This document shows, piece after piece, positions 19,925 to 29,747 of a stretch of DNA of 64,000 nucleotides. Within the stretch, counting starts at the first letter, position 1; each line of letters starts with the position of its first letter. Source of the stretch: Dolichospermum sp. DET69 (lineage in GTDB: Bacteria > Cyanobacteriota > Cyanobacteriia > Cyanobacteriales > Nostocaceae). Location of the stretch: the NCBI GenBank assembly GCA_017355425.1, contig CP070233.1, positions 4,195,501 to 4,259,500 of the forward strand, in the 5' to 3' direction. A program made the position numbers and the translations under genes. Below the pieces are notes generated by a model that was not told where the DNA came from, ran no database searches, and was given only the letters and a program-made list of their open reading frames with translations.

Positions 19925-20014
19925 GCTATTGGCTATAAAGAATAATAAATGGGATAATTTGTATAATTTCATAGATGATACTCCTGGTGTTTGATAATTT
20001 TACCTCTCTCCAAA

Positions 20015-20037
20015 CCTCTCTCCTACAAGGAGAGAGG
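20015..20037. repeat. Inverted repeat cctctctcc / ggagagagg
   Basis: Nine-base perfect arms with a tacaa loop, followed by a second related pair (ccctctcct / aggagaggg, 20060-20078). They lie just downstream of the DUF2887 gene on the minus strand and may act as its terminator, though this repeat type is dispersed. Confidence 0.5.
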
Positions 20038-20093
20038 CTTTGAATTTTCCTGTTCCCTCTCCTCTTAGGAGAGGGTTAGGGAGAGGTTATTTT

Positions 20094-20948
20094 TTATTGA
20101 TGAGATTGATTTTGTTGCAACCAATTTTCTAAATCTTGCAACACAGAAAAATCTAATAAATCTTCAGCTAATGTTTCTATCTTTCCTATAGAAAACTGCT
20201 CAACTTTTGATAATAAAACATCAGGAACTTTACCAAAGCGACGGTTTAATAGTCGTATAACCAGTGATACCGCTTCTGTTTTTGCTCCCAGTTCTTTCCA
20301 GTCTCTAACGGCTCTGGGTTCTTCTGTAATTGGTCCTAATAACATGGCTTCTACTTCCTCTCTAGTTAATTTGTTGAATTTGTAAGTCATTATTTTCGTA
20401 ACTAAATCTATTATGGCTTGTTTTTCTACGTTGTCTACCTCCGTATTTTGGGCTTTTTTTAGTAAAGTTTTAGCGGCTTCTTTGGCTTTATTTTCAGGAG
20501 TATTGGTTAGTAACATTAACCCTATTCCTAAAGATTGGTCTTCTAAATTTCCTAATTCATCAAGATATATTCTCTTGACTTTGTAACTATCTACCAATAT
20601 ATCATGAATGAGGTAATTAGATGGTTCTAAACTACGTGATGGAAAAATTATGACTCCAAACCAGTTGTCATACCTAACTTTATGACGATAGAGAAAAGTC
20701 ATGATTTCAGTGAAGAACCGATGATACAAATCTTTATCTTCTTGAAATTGTACTTCAGCAAAAAATGCTATTTTGGGATTAGCATGATCAGGTGGTAAAA
20801 ATACTCCATCAATTCTAAATGCTGTCTCTTTGACTTCTATAGAATCAAATTGATATTCTGCTGCTTCTGGTGGTTTTTGATCTACCAGTTCAAAGATTAA
20901 ACCGGGAAATTGTTTAAATAGCTGATAAAAAAGGGTGTCTCGACGCAT
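20094..20948 (-). CDS. DUF2887 / Rpn-like PD-(D/E)XK nuclease-type protein
   Basis: A 284-residue member of the cyanobacterial DUF2887 family related to recombination-promoting nucleases. The nuclease core is visible: FRIDGVFLP (D47) and IAFFAEVQFQ (E65 and Q67). C-terminal helices resemble the ARE...ETEA tails of this group. These genes are multicopy and often near mobile DNA; the biological role is unproven. Start ATG 20948 (MRRDTLFYQLFKQFP) is the family N-terminus. Confidence 0.85.
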   Translation of the reverse strand: MRRDTLFYQLFKQFPGLIFELVDQKPPEAAEYQFDSIEVKETAFRIDGVFLPPDHANPKIAFFAEVQFQEDKDLYHRFFTEIMTFLYRHKVRYDNWFGVIIFPSRSLEPSNYLIHDILVDSYKVKRIYLDELGNLEDQSLGIGLMLLTNTPENKAKEAAKTLLKKAQNTEVDNVEKQAIIDLVTKIMTYKFNKLTREEVEAMLLGPITEEPRAVRDWKELGAKTEAVSLVIRLLNRRFGKVPDVLLSKVEQFSIGKIETLAEDLLDFSVLQDLENWLQQNQSHQ

Positions 20949-21100
20949 GGTAGATTTTATTTATCCTTAAATATCTTGAATATATCAACTGTACAAGTTA
21001 AATTACTACCAACCAGTAAAGCGAGCATTACTACTGAGTCACAAGAGGATGATCTGTGATAAATGTCTCCTCATACCCCATAACCAATTTACTTAATATT

Positions 21101-22843
21101 ATGAATCAAACCTATACAACAGATGTCCTAGTCGTCGGTGGAGGAACCGGTGGAACAGCGGCCGCTATCCAAGCAGCACGACGAGGAGTAAACACAATCT
21201 TAGTCAGTGAATTTTCCTGGTTAGGGGGAATGTTAACCTCTGCCGGCGTATCAGCACCAGACGGAAACGAATTACAAGCATTGCAAACAGGTTTATGGGG
21301 AGCTTTTTTACAAGAATTGCAACGTAGACAACCAGGGGGATTAGATAACAGTTGGGTCAGCTTTTTCAGTTATAATCCACGAATAGGTGCAGAAATATTT
21401 GCCGATTGGGTGCGAGAATTACCTAATCTTCAATGGATTTCGGGACAAGTCCCATTAGCAGTTTTGCGAACCCAAGATTGTATTACAGGTGTCCGCTTTG
21501 CAGATTTCACCGTCAACGCCAAAATTATTCTTGATGGTACAGAATTAGGAGACTTATTAGCATTAGGAGAAGTACCTTACCGTTGGGGTTGGGAATTGCA
21601 GTCAGAATGGGGAGAACCCAGCGCACCAGCAAATTTTAACACTCTTACCCAAACCTATCCAGTCCAAGCACCAACTTGGGTAGTAGTCATGGAAGATTAT
21701 GGAGAAAATATCGCTCCAGTAATTCCCCCCGCCCCTAACTACGATCCATCTCAGTTTACAGGAGCTTGGGATAACTATGGTGCAGAAAAGTTTTTGAACT
21801 ACGGACGCTTACCAGCAAATCAATTTATGATTAACTGGCCTATTGCGGGCAACGATTACTGCCAAAATGCCAATCGGTTGCTAGATGCGGATGTAAAAAA
21901 GCGCGAATTTGTGCAAGAATGTTTTTGGCACAGTCAGAATTTTGCTCACTTCATTCAAACGGAGTTGGGTAGGCGTTACGGACTAGCAGAAAACCTTTTC
22001 CCCAGTGCTAACTCCGCTTTTGCCCTCCATCCCTATTATCGGGAAAGTCGCCGTCTAGTAGGCTTAACTACCGTTTGTGAACAGGATATTTTGCCTTTAG
22101 CCAACAGTAATACCGCATTACCATTTCTTGATGCTATTGCTGTCGGTAACTATGCCAACGATCATCATTATCCCGGTGTTGAGTTTTCGCTGCAACCTAA
22201 ATCTATTCGTTGGGGTGGAAGATGGACAGGAACACCCTTCACTATCCCTTATCGCGCTCTGATTCCTGCAAGTACAGATGGTTTACTGGTTTGCGAAAAG
22301 AACATTTCCGTTTCTCACATCGCTAACGGGGCCACTAGACTCCAACCAGTAGTCATGGGAATCGGACAAGCGGCAGGTATGGCAGCAAGTCTTTGTATTG
22401 TGCTAGAATGTCAACCCAGGGATTTACCAGTGAAGAGTTTGCAGGCTGCATTATTGACAGACGACTATGCACCTGGCGTAATTGTTCCCTTGTTTAACTT
22501 ATTAACTAATCATCCCGATTGGTTGTACTGGCAAACTTATTATTTAGACCATCCAGAAGCTTATCCTGCTGATGGTAACTGCCCTGGTATTTCGGTGGAG
22601 GAAGATCATAAATTAAACCTCGACTGCTTTACAGGCAAATTCCAACGACTGGATTGGCAAAACTACCAATTTAATATTACAGAAAACACCAATTTAACTA
22701 CGACAAATTGGCAGCTTGTAACGCTTAGATCGCATATAGATCAAGCACTACAAGCTTTTCCCCCAGAAAAAATGCTCAAGATTTGGGGGCGGCCAAATTT
22801 GTCTGGAAGTTGGTTACTTGTTGAGCATCTTGAGGAAGTATAA
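21101..22843 (+). CDS. FAD-dependent oxidoreductase
   Basis: A 580-residue protein with an N-terminal dinucleotide fold: TDVLVVGGGTGGTAAAIQA is the GxGxxG motif and VSEFSWLGGMLTSAG the second conserved block of the FAD_oxidored family. A GxAAG motif near the C-terminal FAD region (GIGQAAGMAASLC) is present. The substrate is not known. A GTG at 21056 opens the frame earlier, but ATG 21101 starts just before the conserved fold. It is followed by patX in the same direction with 107 bp between. Confidence 0.88.
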   Translation: MNQTYTTDVLVVGGGTGGTAAAIQAARRGVNTILVSEFSWLGGMLTSAGVSAPDGNELQALQTGLWGAFLQELQRRQPGGLDNSWVSFFSYNPRIGAEIFADWVRELPNLQWISGQVPLAVLRTQDCITGVRFADFTVNAKIILDGTELGDLLALGEVPYRWGWELQSEWGEPSAPANFNTLTQTYPVQAPTWVVVMEDYGENIAPVIPPAPNYDPSQFTGAWDNYGAEKFLNYGRLPANQFMINWPIAGNDYCQNANRLLDADVKKREFVQECFWHSQNFAHFIQTELGRRYGLAENLFPSANSAFALHPYYRESRRLVGLTTVCEQDILPLANSNTALPFLDAIAVGNYANDHHYPGVEFSLQPKSIRWGGRWTGTPFTIPYRALIPASTDGLLVCEKNISVSHIANGATRLQPVVMGIGQAAGMAASLCIVLECQPRDLPVKSLQAALLTDDYAPGVIVPLFNLLTNHPDWLYWQTYYLDHPEAYPADGNCPGISVEEDHKLNLDCFTGKFQRLDWQNYQFNITENTNLTTTNWQLVTLRSHIDQALQAFPPEKMLKIWGRPNLSGSWLLVEHLEEV

Positions 22844-22859
22844 AATGAACTTTTATTCA

Positions 22860-22915
22860 GTAAAATACAATACTTTTTTGCGAATTTTCCGGATAGACAT
22901 ATAAAAGTTAAGTAT
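22860..22915 (+). promoter_or_regulatory. patX promoter: NtcA-type box and TCCGGA (DIF-type) motif
   Basis: An exact GTA-N8-TAC lies at 22860-22873, the consensus for the nitrogen regulator NtcA. Fourteen bases later is TCCGGA (22888-22893), the motif reported at the -35 region of differentiation-specific promoters in Nostoc. A -10-like TAAGTAT is at 22909-22915, 15 bp after the motif. This would give a short leader before the ATG at 22951. Consensus matches are seen; function is inferred. Confidence 0.6.
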
Positions 22916-22950
22916 TAGTGAAGTAGAGAGTTCTAAAATAGACATCTACT

Positions 22951-23184
22951 ATGCGTGCTGCCATTTCACTTTTAGTATCGAGTCTGGTATGTGGCTCCTT
23001 AGCTTTCAACTGCGAAGCAGTACAGACTCGTTTTTCCCCTCTATCAATGGCTAAGTCGGATTCTCAGCTTTCACCTTTGGTAAACCAGAGGTTTAACCTC
23101 GCTGATAACTCCAAACCTAGCCCCAATCAACCTGAAAAACCCAATCCTCATCGAGGTAGTGGTCGCAGAGGCTTGGATGGATAA
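22951..23184 (+). CDS. patX: PatX-like heterocyst patterning peptide precursor
   Basis: 77 residues: an N-terminal hydrophobic signal segment (AAISLLVSSLVCGSLAF, residues 3-19), a polar proline/asparagine-rich linker, and a C-terminal HRGSGRR (67-73). RGSGR is the pentapeptide of PatS that binds HetR and blocks heterocyst differentiation; PatX proteins have a signal peptide plus an RG(S/T)GR motif near the C-terminus, exactly this layout. Upstream are an NtcA-type box and a TCCGGA motif. HetR itself is encoded 5.7 kb downstream. Identification is by motif and layout. Confidence 0.85.
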   Translation: MRAAISLLVSSLVCGSLAFNCEAVQTRFSPLSMAKSDSQLSPLVNQRFNLADNSKPSPNQPEKPNPHRGSGRRGLDG

Positions 23185-23304
23185 CTTGGCAATGTCGGTT
23201 CTGTTATTTAATAGTTGGAGGATAAGACCTGCAACGAGCGAGATGATATTACCGGATTATTGGATCTTTCGTATCCTGCATAACGCTTCTTGAATTGAGA
23301 CGAT

Positions 23305-23482
23305 ATAGACAGTTACAGCACTACACTTGTTTGATTCGCTTGTTCAAAATTTTCCTTTGACTGATACCAGATATACACAGTTACATCACTATATCTATCC
23401 TCAGTAGTATAGCTCCTGCATCACTACGCAAGCTATCAGTATTTCAATTTCTCTGCTAAAAACATAGACAGTTACGGCACTT
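23305..23482 (+). repeat. Three copies of atagacagttac-agcact
   Basis: The motif occurs as atagacagttacagcacta (23305), atacacagttacatcacta (23373) and atagacagttacggcactt (23464), spaced 68 and 91 bp, all in the same direction as patX. The bases between the copies are not similar. No start codon pattern is shared, so they are not translated repeats. Confidence 0.6.
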
Positions 23483-23730
23483 CATCTCTCGAAACTCGAA
23501 AATTGTTCAATATTTCATCAAAACATCCGGTAATTACTCAAACCTTGGCGTGTATTGGTGAGTAAATCACTAATACACGTACTAACTTCGCCCTTCATAA
23601 TCGCTTTTGGGGTTCAATGTTTGGGTATTAACAGGTGGGAATAATCACCGGAATCAAGGGAAAAGAGAACTTTTATTTGGATTTGTCAACTTATCACTTT
23701 AGATCAAGTTTCTCTCATTAACTTTAGTGT

Positions 23731-23820
23731 TTATCCATTACCACAAGCAACATCTATGACTCGGAGTTGTCCTTGGGGAATATGGTTAAAAGCTATCAGT
23801 TGGGATTTGAGAAGAGACAT
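23731..23820 (-). pseudogene. Methyltransferase N-terminal fragment
   Basis: A 29-codon minus-strand frame reads MSLLKSQLIAFNHI, then LRVIDVACGNG and a TAA. RVxDVACGxG is the SAM-binding motif I of class I methyltransferases, but nothing follows it. It is flanked at ~23699 and ~23839 by copies of tagatcaagtttctc. Likely a remnant. Confidence 0.45.
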
Positions 23821-24001
23821 TTAGCTGAAGTGATAGATAGATCAAGTTTCTCAAGCTTGTCCTCACGGTTTTGTGAGTAAAATCCCAGTAATTATTGTTC
23901 GAGATTTTCACCCGATTTTCCGATAAAATTAAGTTCTGTTAACTATTTTGTCGAGTTTCCTAACTCGCTCGAATTCTAACAGCCAAAAACAGGGAAAATA
24001 T

Positions 24002-24047
24002 AAATCATTCATCACAATTTTTACCTGTTAATAGGTGTGAATGATTT
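24002..24047 (+). promoter_or_regulatory. Hairpin in the leader of the phosphate transporter gene
   Basis: aaatcattcatcac and gtgtgaatgattt form a near-perfect 13-bp stem with one bulge, ending 5 bp before the chosen ATG (24053). It overlaps an alternative ATG at 24041. Such a stem could affect translation or mark an operator; no known regulator box is recognised. Confidence 0.4.
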
Positions 24048-24052
24048 GTTTT

Positions 24053-25297
24053 ATGGAAATACAAACCGCGATAGTCGCCTTTTTAGCCTTCTACGTCGCC
24101 TGGAATTTGGGTGCAAATGATGTTGCTAATGCCATGGGAACTTCTGTGGGTTCTAAGGCTATCACCCTCAAACAAGCAATCATTATTGCTGGGGTGTTAG
24201 AGTTTCTTGGGGCTGTCTTGTTTGGACAAGAGGTAACTTCTACTCTTAGCACAAAAATCGTTAATCCGGCTTTATTCGCTACGACACCACAAGCTTTAGT
24301 CATGGGGATGATAGCGGTACTCATTAGCGGTGGGGTATGGCTACAAATTGCCACAGCTAGGGGTTTACCTGTATCTTCGTCTCACGCCATTGTGGGAGCG
24401 ATCGCTGGCTTTAGTTGGGTAGCATTAGGAGTAGGGGCAATAGATTGGTCATCCATTGGTTTAATCACCATTGGTTGGATTTTAACACCAATAATTAGTG
24501 GAGCGATCGCCGCTGGATTTTATAGTCTAATTCAACACTGGATTTTTAACCAACCCCATCCTCTAAACCATTTACAGGAATGGATTCCCTGGTTAAGTAC
24601 AATACTATTGAGTGTATTTGGCATTATTGTTCTCCCCACACTCACTCAACCCCTAAGCCTGTTTTTAGTTGAACAGGGATTTAATATTCCGCCTCACGAC
24701 ATTACCTTATTTACGGGTGGGATAGCTTTAATTAGCCTGACTTTGATCAGTTGGCGACAATTAGCAAATAGTCAAATTGAACCGAAAATTCAAGGTTTAT
24801 TTGCTAAATTTCAAGTTTTGAGTGCTTGCTTTGTCGCTTTTGCTCATGGTTCTAATGATGTTGGTAATGCGATCGCTCCCTTAGCAGTAATTTCCTACAT
24901 TTATCAACAAGGTAGAGTCCCCAGTGATGAACTCACCATCCCCTTGTGGATTCTGGTTCTCGGTGCTATGGGAATTGTGGCCGGTTTAGCCGTTTGGGGT
25001 AAAAAAGTTATTGCTACTATTGGCGAAAATATTATTTCCTTAGAACCTAGCAGCGGATTTTGTGCCGAACTGGCCACAGCCGTCACAATCTTACTGGCTT
25101 CCCGTTTGGGTTTACCCGTTTCCACCTCCCACGCCCTTGTCGGTGGAGTTGTGGGTATTGGACTGGTACAACAAAATATTAAATCAATAAAATTTTCCAC
25201 TATCCAAAATATCGCCGCTGCCTGGTTAATTACAGTCCCTATCAGCGCCGCCCTCAGTGCCGCTATTTTCAAGATTATGGCAACTTTTTGGCACTAA
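24053..25297 (+). CDS. Inorganic phosphate transporter, PiT family
   Basis: 414 residues with about ten membrane segments. The duplicated family signature is visible: GANDVANAMGTSVGSKA in the first half and AHGSNDVGNAIAPL in the second, plus two VSSSHA/VSTSHA motifs. These proteins take up phosphate with protons or sodium. The frame also has an ATG at 24041, four codons earlier, which lies inside a leader hairpin; ATG 24053 was preferred. The gene stands alone. Confidence 0.93.
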   Translation: MEIQTAIVAFLAFYVAWNLGANDVANAMGTSVGSKAITLKQAIIIAGVLEFLGAVLFGQEVTSTLSTKIVNPALFATTPQALVMGMIAVLISGGVWLQIATARGLPVSSSHAIVGAIAGFSWVALGVGAIDWSSIGLITIGWILTPIISGAIAAGFYSLIQHWIFNQPHPLNHLQEWIPWLSTILLSVFGIIVLPTLTQPLSLFLVEQGFNIPPHDITLFTGGIALISLTLISWRQLANSQIEPKIQGLFAKFQVLSACFVAFAHGSNDVGNAIAPLAVISYIYQQGRVPSDELTIPLWILVLGAMGIVAGLAVWGKKVIATIGENIISLEPSSGFCAELATAVTILLASRLGLPVSTSHALVGGVVGIGLVQQNIKSIKFSTIQNIAAAWLITVPISAALSAAIFKIMATFWH

Positions 25298-25319
25298 ATT
25301 TCCGAGGTTTATAACATCT

Positions 25320-25338
25320 TCTCCCCGCGGAGAGGATT
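25320..25338 (+). terminator. Terminator after the phosphate transporter
   Basis: Stem tctcc-ccgc-ggaga followed by ggattttt, 22 bp beyond the stop. Short but with a T run. Confidence 0.5.
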
Positions 25339-25710
25339 TTTGCATAATTTCTGCTCATTAACTACAATGATCTATTAGGAGAGACATAATTTGATAGTCT
25401 CTAATTGTCAGTAACCCAGCCCTAAAGGGACTGAGTTTCCCGCATACCGCGAGGTCTTATGATGTCAACTGTCAAGCAAGACACATTCCGCACTGATTTG
25501 ATGCTTGTAGTTAGGTATTTAATATGTAAGACTTTTATAACTATCATTCTCTAAAAAATGATAGGGACTAATCTTGTATAAGTTAATTAAATTTATAAGT
25601 TCCGTGAAATTGTGCAGTTTCCGATGTTTTCTCAAAGAAACTTAATACAAGTTTTGATTTGGTATCCGGGGAAGCAACTTAATCATCAAGGTGTTAGAGG
25701 CTAGAAACTG
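25339..25710. other. Intergenic region with possible transposon-end fragment
   Basis: A segment aacccagccctaaagggact followed by gagtttcccgcataccgcgaggtc at about 25411-25456 looks like an insertion-sequence end (short imperfect palindrome agccctaaagggact) but no transposase is near. Inverted aaaaaatgatag / ctatcatt bases lie at about 25540-25563. The rest is AT-rich promoter DNA of the next gene. Confidence 0.35.
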
Positions 25711-28170
25711 ATGGGGCGATTTGAGAAACGACCAGAAAACCCACGCATTAGAGGTGAGCTATCCAGAGCCGCTGAAAATGCTCTATGGGATGTAGTTGAG
25801 GATTTAGAAAATCTTCAACAAAATGTGCTGAGGTCGTTGCAGGAAGACGTAAAACGGCTAGAAACTGAAAAAAACCGATTATCTAACGATATTCAAAAGT
25901 TAATTGAGGAAAAGGAGCATTTACAACAATCACGACAAATCACTGAGCAGCAGGTGTTAATCCGTCAATTAGCAGAAGTTTTAGCCAAACATATATCTTC
26001 TCAATTACAATCGTCACTGAAAACTTTAGCTACTCAAGCCGTAGAGCATAACCCCTCTGATCAAGCTGCGCTTCAAAATACTCAATTAGGTAATAATGCA
26101 GTTAATGAAATCGAACAGAATGTCAATAATATGCTAGACAGTCTGGATGATACCGTCACTATTGCCTTTAGTTCACTATTACAAGAACTCAAAAACTATC
26201 AAGGTGATCTTTCTCAACAGTTGTCACGGATGTATAGCCAACAACAGCAAGGGGAGGTAATATTAGCAGAATTTGTGAATCGTCTGCGAGGTGAGGTAGA
26301 AAAAAATCGAGACACTAATTCTGTCAAGGTAGTAACAGGAGGCGCACTCACTGTTTTACAACTACCTAATAGCCCACGTGGCGAAGCTATAGCTTATCAA
26401 AATGGGAATGGGGAAAAATCCTCACAAAGAATGATTGTTGAACCAGTTACTTTGATTCCCCATGAATTACCACACGGTGATTCTACATCAGCAGCTAATG
26501 CGGTTATATTATCTTCCCCAACCAACAAAAGCCCTGAACCCAGTTCTTTCGTAAATCCAGATTTACCAACAGCAATACCGGAAGATAAAAGCCCTGAACC
26601 CAGTTCTTTCGTAAATCCAGATTTACCAACAGCGATACCGGAAGATAAAAATCCTGAATCTAGTTCTTTTGTAAATCCAGATTTACCAACAGCGATACCG
26701 GAAGATAAAAGCCCTGAACCTAGTTCTTTCGTAAATCCAGATTTACCAACAGTGATACCGGAAGACAAAAATCCTGAACCTAGTTCTTTCGTAAATCTAG
26801 ATTTACCAACAGCAATACCAGAAGACAAAAATCCTGAACCTAGTTCTTTCGTAAATCCAGATACATCACAGGAAGACAAAAACCTTGAACCGACTGCTGT
26901 TTTGACTTCTAAAGTATTAACAGCACCATCCCTGGGAGATACCCCATCTGAACCACGTTCTGTTTTAACTCCTAATTTACCAACAGGACGACCACCAACA
27001 CCAAAATTAAGACGGGAAACAACATCCAAACAACAAACAACTCCCAGAGAACAAACTACTCCCAGACAACAAATAAATCCCAGAGAACAAACTACTCCCA
27101 GAGAACAAACTACTCCCAGACAACAAAGATCCCGCACATCTCCTAACTGGTCAGAATTACAGATAGGTTTTCTTTTGATCTCTTTGTCTACAGTGGTTTC
27201 GTCTCTTTACAACGTAGCCATTAAAGCGATTTTCTTTACAGCTTCTAATTCCTTGGGAGGATTACCAACACAGCAGCTAATCTTACCTACATTGGGTAAT
27301 ATTTTCTTGATTTTGATGCTACGTTTATTAGTGGTTGTGCCATTAATGTTACTTTTATCGCCCATATTACATCCTCCTATTTGGCAAGAGCTAGAAAATT
27401 TATTTACTTCATTACGAGCAAATGCAACCCCTATTCAGCAGAAAAGTAAACAGGCTTTATTTTTATCAATCATTAGCGGTTGCTTGTTATTCTTATCACA
27501 GGTACTTATTTATATTGCTATTGGTGAAGTCACAACAGGAATGGCGATCGCCCTCTTCTTTATCTATCCAGTTATGAGTGTGTTTCTGTCGTGGTTTCTA
27601 TTTCAAGAACGTCCTAATGTACTGATTACTGGGGCAATGGCGGCAATTTTTTGTGGTGAACTGTTGATTTTAGCTAATCAGTCTATAGGGGTGAATAATA
27701 CCTCATTAGGAAGCATTACAGCTATTTTCTCTGGGGTAGCATTTGCAATGTACGTCGTTTTTACCAGGATATGCGCCACTAAACTCAAATTACATCCGGT
27801 ATCTTTGACTTTAATTAACTTCACTACCATGTTGTTATTAAGTTTTATTTGCTTAATTATCCCTTTACCCAGTAATTTAGCTTTAGCAATTAACTCATCT
27901 AATGGACTCGAACTGGTATTAAGTGCTTTTATATTAGGTGTTCTGACTTTATGCGGTTACTTATTCAATAATTTTGGTATTCGTAAACTAGGCTCTCCCT
28001 ACTCATCTTTGATTGGAGCTACAGTCCCCATTTTAACCGTGATTTTCGCTGGTGTAATGCTCCAAGAATCTCTAGATATTGTCCAAGTTATAGGAGTTAT
28101 CTTAGTGACGATTGGTACAGCAAGTATTACCTGGAAAAAAACACCCAATCAGCCACAACCATCTAAATAG
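25711..28170 (+). CDS. Fusion of coiled coil, repeat linker and EamA (DMT) transporter
   Basis: 819 residues in three parts. Residues ~10-200 are helical with a coiled coil (VKRLETEKNRLSNDIQKLIE). Residues ~272-390 are six 20-residue repeats of the type SPEPSSFVNPDLPTAIPEDK, then a ~40-residue TTPREQTTPRQQ stretch. From ~residue 485 to the end there are about ten membrane helices of an EamA drug/metabolite transporter (two halves, e.g. ITAIFSGVAFAMYVVFTR). EamA proteins are normally ~300 residues, so the N-terminal ~480 residues are an unusual extension. The cargo is unknown. Confidence 0.85.
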   Translation: MGRFEKRPENPRIRGELSRAAENALWDVVEDLENLQQNVLRSLQEDVKRLETEKNRLSNDIQKLIEEKEHLQQSRQITEQQVLIRQLAEVLAKHISSQLQSSLKTLATQAVEHNPSDQAALQNTQLGNNAVNEIEQNVNNMLDSLDDTVTIAFSSLLQELKNYQGDLSQQLSRMYSQQQQGEVILAEFVNRLRGEVEKNRDTNSVKVVTGGALTVLQLPNSPRGEAIAYQNGNGEKSSQRMIVEPVTLIPHELPHGDSTSAANAVILSSPTNKSPEPSSFVNPDLPTAIPEDKSPEPSSFVNPDLPTAIPEDKNPESSSFVNPDLPTAIPEDKSPEPSSFVNPDLPTVIPEDKNPEPSSFVNLDLPTAIPEDKNPEPSSFVNPDTSQEDKNLEPTAVLTSKVLTAPSLGDTPSEPRSVLTPNLPTGRPPTPKLRRETTSKQQTTPREQTTPRQQINPREQTTPREQTTPRQQRSRTSPNWSELQIGFLLISLSTVVSSLYNVAIKAIFFTASNSLGGLPTQQLILPTLGNIFLILMLRLLVVVPLMLLLSPILHPPIWQELENLFTSLRANATPIQQKSKQALFLSIISGCLLFLSQVLIYIAIGEVTTGMAIALFFIYPVMSVFLSWFLFQERPNVLITGAMAAIFCGELLILANQSIGVNNTSLGSITAIFSGVAFAMYVVFTRICATKLKLHPVSLTLINFTTMLLLSFICLIIPLPSNLALAINSSNGLELVLSAFILGVLTLCGYLFNNFGIRKLGSPYSSLIGATVPILTVIFAGVMLQESLDIVQVIGVILVTIGTASITWKKTPNQPQPSK
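26527..26880 (+). repeat. Six in-frame 60-bp tandem repeats
   Basis: Units run in exact 60-bp register (26521, 26581, 26641, 26701, 26761 and a shortened sixth) with few base changes. Each encodes SPEPSSFVNPDLPTAIPEDK or close variants. The high identity indicates recent expansion or repeat homogenisation within the gene. The antisense frame is open across it (26397-27137) only because the repeat has no stops there. Confidence 0.9.
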
Positions 28171-28171
28171 G

Positions 28172-28429
28172 AGTCACCGTAGGGGCAATCCCCCCGTGGT
28201 TGCCCCTCTTGTGGAGTCACCGTAGGGGCAATCCCCCCGTGGTTGCCCCTCTTGTGGAGTCACCGTAGGGGCAATCCCCCCGTGGTTGCCCCTCTTGTGG
28301 AGTCACCGTAGGGGCAATCCCCCCGTGGTTGCCCCTCTTGTGGAGTCACCGTAGGGGCAATCCCCCCGTGGTTGCCCCTCTTGTGGAGTCACCGTAGGGG
28401 CAATCCCCCCGTGGTTGCCCCTCTTGTGG
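28172..28429. repeat. Six perfect 43-bp tandem repeats
   Basis: Copies start at 28172, 28215, 28258, 28301, 28344 and 28387, with a seventh partial unit (agtcaccga) at 28430. Each contains ggggcaa ... ttgcccc inverted arms around atccccccgtgg-type bases and ends ctcttgtgg. All six appear identical. They begin two bases after the transporter stop codon (28168-28170). No spacers, so not a CRISPR. Confidence 0.92.

Positions 28430-29747
<1,318 letters not shown>

Follow-up and report, generated by a model that had tools for sequence, protein, structure and literature searches.

A patX gene preceded by an NtcA-type box and a DIF1 motif, 5.9 kb upstream of hetR, in Dolichospermum sp. DET69

A 77-residue open reading frame in the genome of Dolichospermum sp. 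DET69 (GenBank assembly GCA_017355425.1, contig CP070233.1) raises the question of whether it encodes the precursor of the heterocyst inhibitor PatX, and whether nitrogen control and developmental timing meet at its promoter, as an earlier note on this DNA had proposed. The stretch of DNA analysed, here called the window, comprises 64,000 nucleotides (positions 4,195,501 to 4,259,500 of the forward strand of the contig); positions given below are those of the window, and negative positions are counted from the ATG of the gene. The features of the locus are:

22860..22873, plus strand: NtcA-type box GTA-N8-TAC, start at -91; putative NtcA-binding site
22874..22878 (-77..-73), plus strand: T tract after the box; mean pairwise identity 0.81 across 41 genera
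22888..22893, plus strand: DIF1 motif TCCGGA, start at -63
22908..22922 (-43..-29), plus strand: conserved block (identity 0.64), probably the -10 region
22922..22928, plus strand: predicted transcription start (near 22925), placed by analogy with patS, for which 35 bp between DIF1 and the start are given (PMC7377430)
22923..22950 (-28..-1), plus strand: strongly conserved block before the ATG (identity 0.73), mostly predicted 5' leader
22951..23184, plus strand: patX; hydrophobic N-terminus, linker, HRGSGR and tail RGLDG; NF047413, 89.1 bits
28848..29747, plus strand: hetR (NF009718, 604.9 bits); the PatX peptide is expected to act on its product

The open-reading-frame list and its translation give an ATG start and 77 amino acids for the frame, which reads MRAAISLLVSSLVCGS...NPHRGSGRRGLDG, with NPHRGSGRRGLDG as the C-terminal end. 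The NCBIfam equivalog model NF047413 (heterocyst_PatX, heterocyst-inhibiting protein PatX) scores 89.1 bits over residues 1-74 (cut-off, 30), and exceeds this cut-off only once in the 6.04-Mb genome, at this frame; a Pfam search of the protein returned no family. By this curated model the protein is PatX, and the proposed membership of the PatX family is borne out. On visual inspection, the N-terminal segment MRAAISLLVSSLVCGSLAF is hydrophobic; the start of this segment is conserved. HRGSGR occupies residues 67-72, near the C-terminus; the earlier note was right about this motif but not in letting the protein end in HRGSGRR, as four further residues (GLDG) follow. The PatX of Nostoc/Anabaena PCC 7120 is likewise a small precursor with HRG(S/T)GR and a DIF1 (TCCGGA) promoter, and is described with an N-terminal export segment (PMC7761841; PMC12756182), for which the hydrophobic N-terminus here is a candidate; the motif is RGTGR there (PMC7761841) and RGSGR here. 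PatS resembles the protein as an RGSGR-containing precursor with a DIF1 promoter (PMC7377430), but its RGSGR is stated to be C-terminal (PMC7761841), whereas here five residues follow the motif and the profile names PatX.

Other RGSGR proteins, such as PatS or HetN, were sought in the genome by pattern searches. A pattern for RGSGR followed by TAA or TGA occurs once; the site reads RGSGS, in a frame that is not that of the polyketide-synthase-like gene there. A pattern for ERGSGR occurs at five places, none of them coding ERGSGR. A looser pattern gave 72 places, 20 of which by eye could begin RG(S/T)G: patX, the RGSGS place and 18 others. These 18 lie in 17 stretches, where 13 RG(S/T)GR frames were found, and none of the 13 ends in the motif; two exceed 100 aa (L215, 241 aa, which we take to be NusG; L216, 112 aa). 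Two short frames without ATG carry the motif three and five residues from the end (L225, L212). As no PatS-like protein ending in RGSGR was seen in these searches, PatX may perhaps be a main early inhibitor in this strain.

DIF1 reportedly lies within 69 nt of all patX genes, with an apparent NtcA site before it in heterocyst formers (a description attributed to Elhai and Khudyakov, 2018), and both traits are present here, at 63 nt before the ATG and at -91, respectively. The exact GTA-N8-TAC and the TCCGGA 14 bp later were found exactly where the earlier note had placed them; the box starts 28 nt upstream of DIF1. The motif of patS is reported to precede its transcription start by 35 bp (PMC7377430), and by this distance the start of patX is predicted near 22925, with the centre of the box about 59 nt before it. 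A sigma-70 scan gave no match at the DIF1 promoter of patX, and an Rfam scan of 20000-26000 gave one match only, far below its threshold. The presence of the two motifs proves nothing by itself, since their counts in the window equal the shuffled expectation (GTA-N8-TAC, 12 observed vs 13.6 expected; TCCGGA, 6 observed vs 7.1 expected); as a pair within 6-24 nt, they occur three times in the whole genome, vs 0 for the pattern read backwards. The above-chance evidence for the promoter motifs is their conservation at a fixed site, not their counts.

The PatX profile matches 186 of the 192 genomes of the window's family, so that similar RG(S/T)GR proteins, whose absence from relatives had been named as refuting the reading, are present. 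Six genomes of the family with hetR (G017, G033, G065, G078, G082, G093) gave no profile match at E 0.001, and are candidates for a patX that was missed, has diverged or was lost. The promoter comparison used 83 loci from the 186 matching genomes, chosen by score, with every one of the 16 genus members taken and thereafter about one for each genus, and with short duplicate loci excluded; 41 of the 54 genera with a match are represented. TCCGGA lies at -72..-54 in 80 of these loci (39/41 with one locus per genus), GT-N10-AC at -100..-82 in 79/83 (39/41), and the exact GTA-N8-TAC at the same place in 57/83 (27/41). Under a Markov model, 0.2% per locus is expected by chance for the exact box and 3.7% for GT-N10-AC, and in six upstream control windows the former was found in 0-1 and the latter in 0-6 of 41 loci. 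Promoter and leader are conserved in the 16 genus loci read, with one exception that lacks the box (L056).

The spacing between box and DIF1 varies by 1-2 nt in some lineages with the box itself intact, which argues that the box is a unit. Across the 41 genera, identity is 0.64 in the box interior, 0.81 in the T tract after it and 0.56 in the GTA/TAC half-sites; the columns were anchored at the ATG without gaps, so that loci with a shifted box lower these values. Since interior and T tract are conserved at least as well as the half-sites, the site could belong to a protein other than NtcA. Mean identity reaches 0.73 over the 28 nt before the ATG, vs 0.35-0.42 in three upstream blocks and 0.64 at the third positions of codons 2-14, and no conserved fold that would explain this was found among the family loci. 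A leader hairpin GTAGA/TCTAC is possible in the window and was rejected, as its pairing is not kept in relatives; the consensus fold of leader and early codons scored -0.42, vs a null mean of -0.16 and a lowest null of -1.68.

HRG(S/T)GR is kept in 71/83 family loci; another residue precedes RGSGR in 11 (Y 7, W 2, D 1, F 1), and one reads YRGGGR. An RGGGR variant was observed in four PatX proteins (L086, L142, L151, L184), and in four further loci (L069, L079, L084, L093) the tail of PatX is extended and carries a second, degenerate motif such as KGGSRRDL.

The frame upstream of patX, for an FAD-dependent oxidoreductase, ends at 22843; downstream are a PHO4 phosphate transporter, a transporter-like open reading frame with internal 60-bp repeats, and hetR, which lies 5.9 kb downstream of the patX ATG on the same strand, so that patX and hetR co-occur in this genome (G000). 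This linkage is mostly a genus trait and not general: hetR was found in 11 of the 60 stretches long enough to look, ten of them of the window's genus. The hetR promoter of PCC 7120 is reported to have a TCCGGA (PMC7377430); here, exact TCCGGA is absent between the DIF1 site of patX and hetR (22894-28847). Repeats were also observed in this region: a 43-bp tandem repeat of 6.2 perfect copies at 28170-28437, about 410-680 bp upstream of hetR, and a 22-nt repeat present three times downstream of patX (23302-23323, 23370-23391, 23461-23482), whose core GACAGTTACNGCACT has two exact matches genome-wide, both downstream of patX.

The nifH profile gave no match over its cut-off in the genome. The best places are two pieces (profile positions 1-146 and 137-274) that lie on one strand with about 5.3 kb between them, and a separate match over the whole profile length reached 223 bits against a cut-off of 394, presumably a nifH-like protein such as ChlL. 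Between the two pieces (L248, G000:C1:226800-235000) lie integrase-like, HTH and DNA methylase genes; the integrase-like protein has a weak phage-integrase match (21.5 bits vs a cut-off of 27.1), and no direct repeat at the two nifH edges was found among the listed 20 of 36 repeat families. The split looks like an interruption element, and as nif genes are known to be interrupted by elements that heterocysts remove, the genome fits that of a heterocyst former.

Taken together, the locus is very probably patX, encoding the precursor of an RGSGR-type inhibitor of HetR under a promoter with an NtcA box and a DIF1 motif, a reading drawn from sequence and from analogy; it is supported by the PatX profile, the conserved spacing of GT-N10-AC and TCCGGA, hetR 5.9 kb away and the split nifH. 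The proposal that nitrogen control and developmental timing act at one promoter is likewise supported, by the profile, the conserved elements at near-fixed spacing and hetR in the window. By analogy with Nostoc PCC 7120, NtcA with 2-oxoglutarate would act on the upstream box upon nitrogen loss, and the DIF1 promoter, dependent on hetZ, which is itself activated by HetR, would start transcription near 22925 in prospective heterocysts. PatX would be exported via its putative signal segment, and a PatP-type peptidase would trim it to (H)RGSGR; the peptide would reach neighbouring cells and stop DNA binding by HetR there, such that only spaced cells differentiate.

Several observations stand against this reading. 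The centre of the classical NtcA site is at -41.5, whereas that of the box is at about -59 from the predicted start; the box interior and T tract are conserved at least as well as the half-sites; and hetR is not generally linked to patX. The pattern of PCC 7120 on nitrogen-free medium is described as not requiring patX, single mutants being without phenotype (PMC7761841), and the effects of PatX in a Leptolyngbya are described as looking HetR-independent (PMC11298460). The position of the box and the conservation around its half-sites, together with the absence of GTA-N8-TAC enrichment in the window, would also suit a patX with a working DIF1 promoter in which GT-N10-AC is the site of another regulator or an AT-rich upstream promoter element, an explanation that excludes the NtcA reading and is excluded by it. 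We consider it unlikely, though worth keeping in mind, since the half-site pattern persists in 79/83 loci despite the shifts of 1-2 nt relative to DIF1, the exact box is found in 0/45 patX genes of other families, and NtcA control of patX is stated, with reference to a 2018 paper, in PMC7476756.

That box and TCCGGA are mere chance matches near a real patX would agree with the whole-window counts, which equal the shuffles, but is scarcely conceivable given the conservation at fixed positions over 41 genera, where the exact box is expected at 0.2% per locus and was seen in 0-1/41 in controls. A decayed, non-functional patX, for which the lack of a phenotype of single mutants in PCC 7120 might be cited (PMC7761841), is very improbable in view of the open frame, the intact motif, the full profile match and the conservation of promoter and leader in the genus loci other than the box-less L056.

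For the reading as patX with an NtcA box and DIF1, most elements are already in print: patS and patX are reported to be induced early from promoters with a DIF1 motif that depend on NtcA and HetR (PMC7761841), expression from the DIF1 promoter of patX to depend on hetZ (PMC7377430), and patX transcription to be under NtcA control (PMC7476756, citing Elhai and Khudyakov 2018). For the protein of PCC 7120, export, cleavage by PatP and inhibition of HetR by HRGTGR are described, and PatX6 is reported to bind HetR with a KD of 88 nM and to block its DNA binding (PMC12756182). With DIF1, NtcA and hetZ dependence and peptide action published, the finding correctly identifies a gene of a known kind, and patX under nitrogen and developmental control is essentially published; the novelty implied earlier was overstated. 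The copy here is ordinary for its kind, with a control region that carries nitrogen-type and development-type signals already described.

In the order, the PatX profile matches 94 of 243 sampled genomes, a sample that takes in part of the window's family. The comparison with other families was based on 53 loci from the order listing, a non-random set, which yielded 45 genes from nine families; four long f33 loci, four loci without an RG(S/T/G)GR frame and L166 (too little upstream sequence) were left out, and L156 comprises two genes. Like the protein here, these PatX proteins have a hydrophobic N-terminus and RG(S/T/G)GR; unlike here, the exact NtcA-type box is found in 0/45 and GT-N10-AC in 1/45, and 14/45 have a dyad over the predicted start. 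At the DIF1 place, WCCKGA is present in 29/45 and exact TCCGGA in 8/45. The dyad is an inverted repeat over -52..-4 that was reached by at most 1 of 40 shuffles; none was found in the 41 loci of the window's family at a limit of 1 of 20 shuffles. It is present in f15 (4/4), f2 (7/20), f12 (1/3), f21 (1/4) and f23 (1/1), and absent by the shuffle test among the f9, f10, f22 and f33 genes compared. Most dyads read TCCGTATCAGG...CCTGACACGGA or a near variant, at about -41 to -10 before patX and over the predicted start; loci that bear one include L163, L164, L165, L182, L155 and L204-L209.

Of 291 genomes of the order, 21 contain the exact pattern CCGTATCAG-N6-14-CTGACACGG, each a single time, with one match for the reversed control. 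In 17 of these 21, the pattern is followed at 0-12 nt by the start of an RG(S/T/G)GR frame, and the other four dyads, all of f12 (L195-L198), precede small MRPYTSIMLLSLLSIS proteins, paralogues with the variant motifs KGTGR or RGTSR. Six dyad loci (L204-L209) are in f29, with proteins of two to four RGSGR copies; this family has no genome among the 94 profile matches of the order sample, and hetR was found in 12 of the 13 f29 genomes examined, lying about 0.6 kb after the dyad on the same strand in G308 and G346. Searching by the dyad alone also brings up patX-like genes beyond the reach of the protein profile. PatX-like proteins with 3-4 RGSGR copies and mostly acidic spacers were observed in f33 (L131, L132, L134, L135, L148), and resemble a multi-copy pheromone precursor.

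Over 57 distinct rows, 70% of the cells of the dyad pair, vs 18-41% with the partner slid, a test biased towards pairing, as 15 of its loci had been collected with the dyad pattern; changes on both sides number 18, vs 9-29 in the slid controls. An RNA hairpin was rejected, both arms being conserved in sequence with no clear covariation, and this conservation favours a DNA operator.

A tentative reading of these patterns, which we regard as possible rather than probable, is that the heterocyst-forming family has a rewired patX promoter, with the dyad lost, an NtcA-type box gained and control moved to nitrogen status. Promoters of the other families would then consist of TCC[G/T]GA and a dyad operator (GTCCGTATCAGG-N-CCTGACACGGAC) for a putative dimeric regulator, with its centre close to the predicted start and its end just short of the ATG, most clearly in f15, f2, f21, f23, f12 and f29; in the window's family, the dyad would have decayed to GTATCAG and GACATCTNCTATGCG, and an NtcA-type box would have appeared 28 nt upstream of DIF1. 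The dyad over the patX start in other families and the precursors with several RGSGR copies may be new.

For the window's family, a small and easily missed inhibitor gene and its composite nitrogen and developmental promoter can be read from sequence alone, and an essentially published promoter architecture is reproduced over 41 genera. The functions of patX and hetR in filamentous cyanobacteria without heterocysts are said to remain a mystery (PMC11298460); the comparison points to a further regulator of patX in such organisms, for which the dyad is a defined bait. If the rewiring is true, control of the inhibitor would have moved from another, possibly non-nitrogen signal to nitrogen status.
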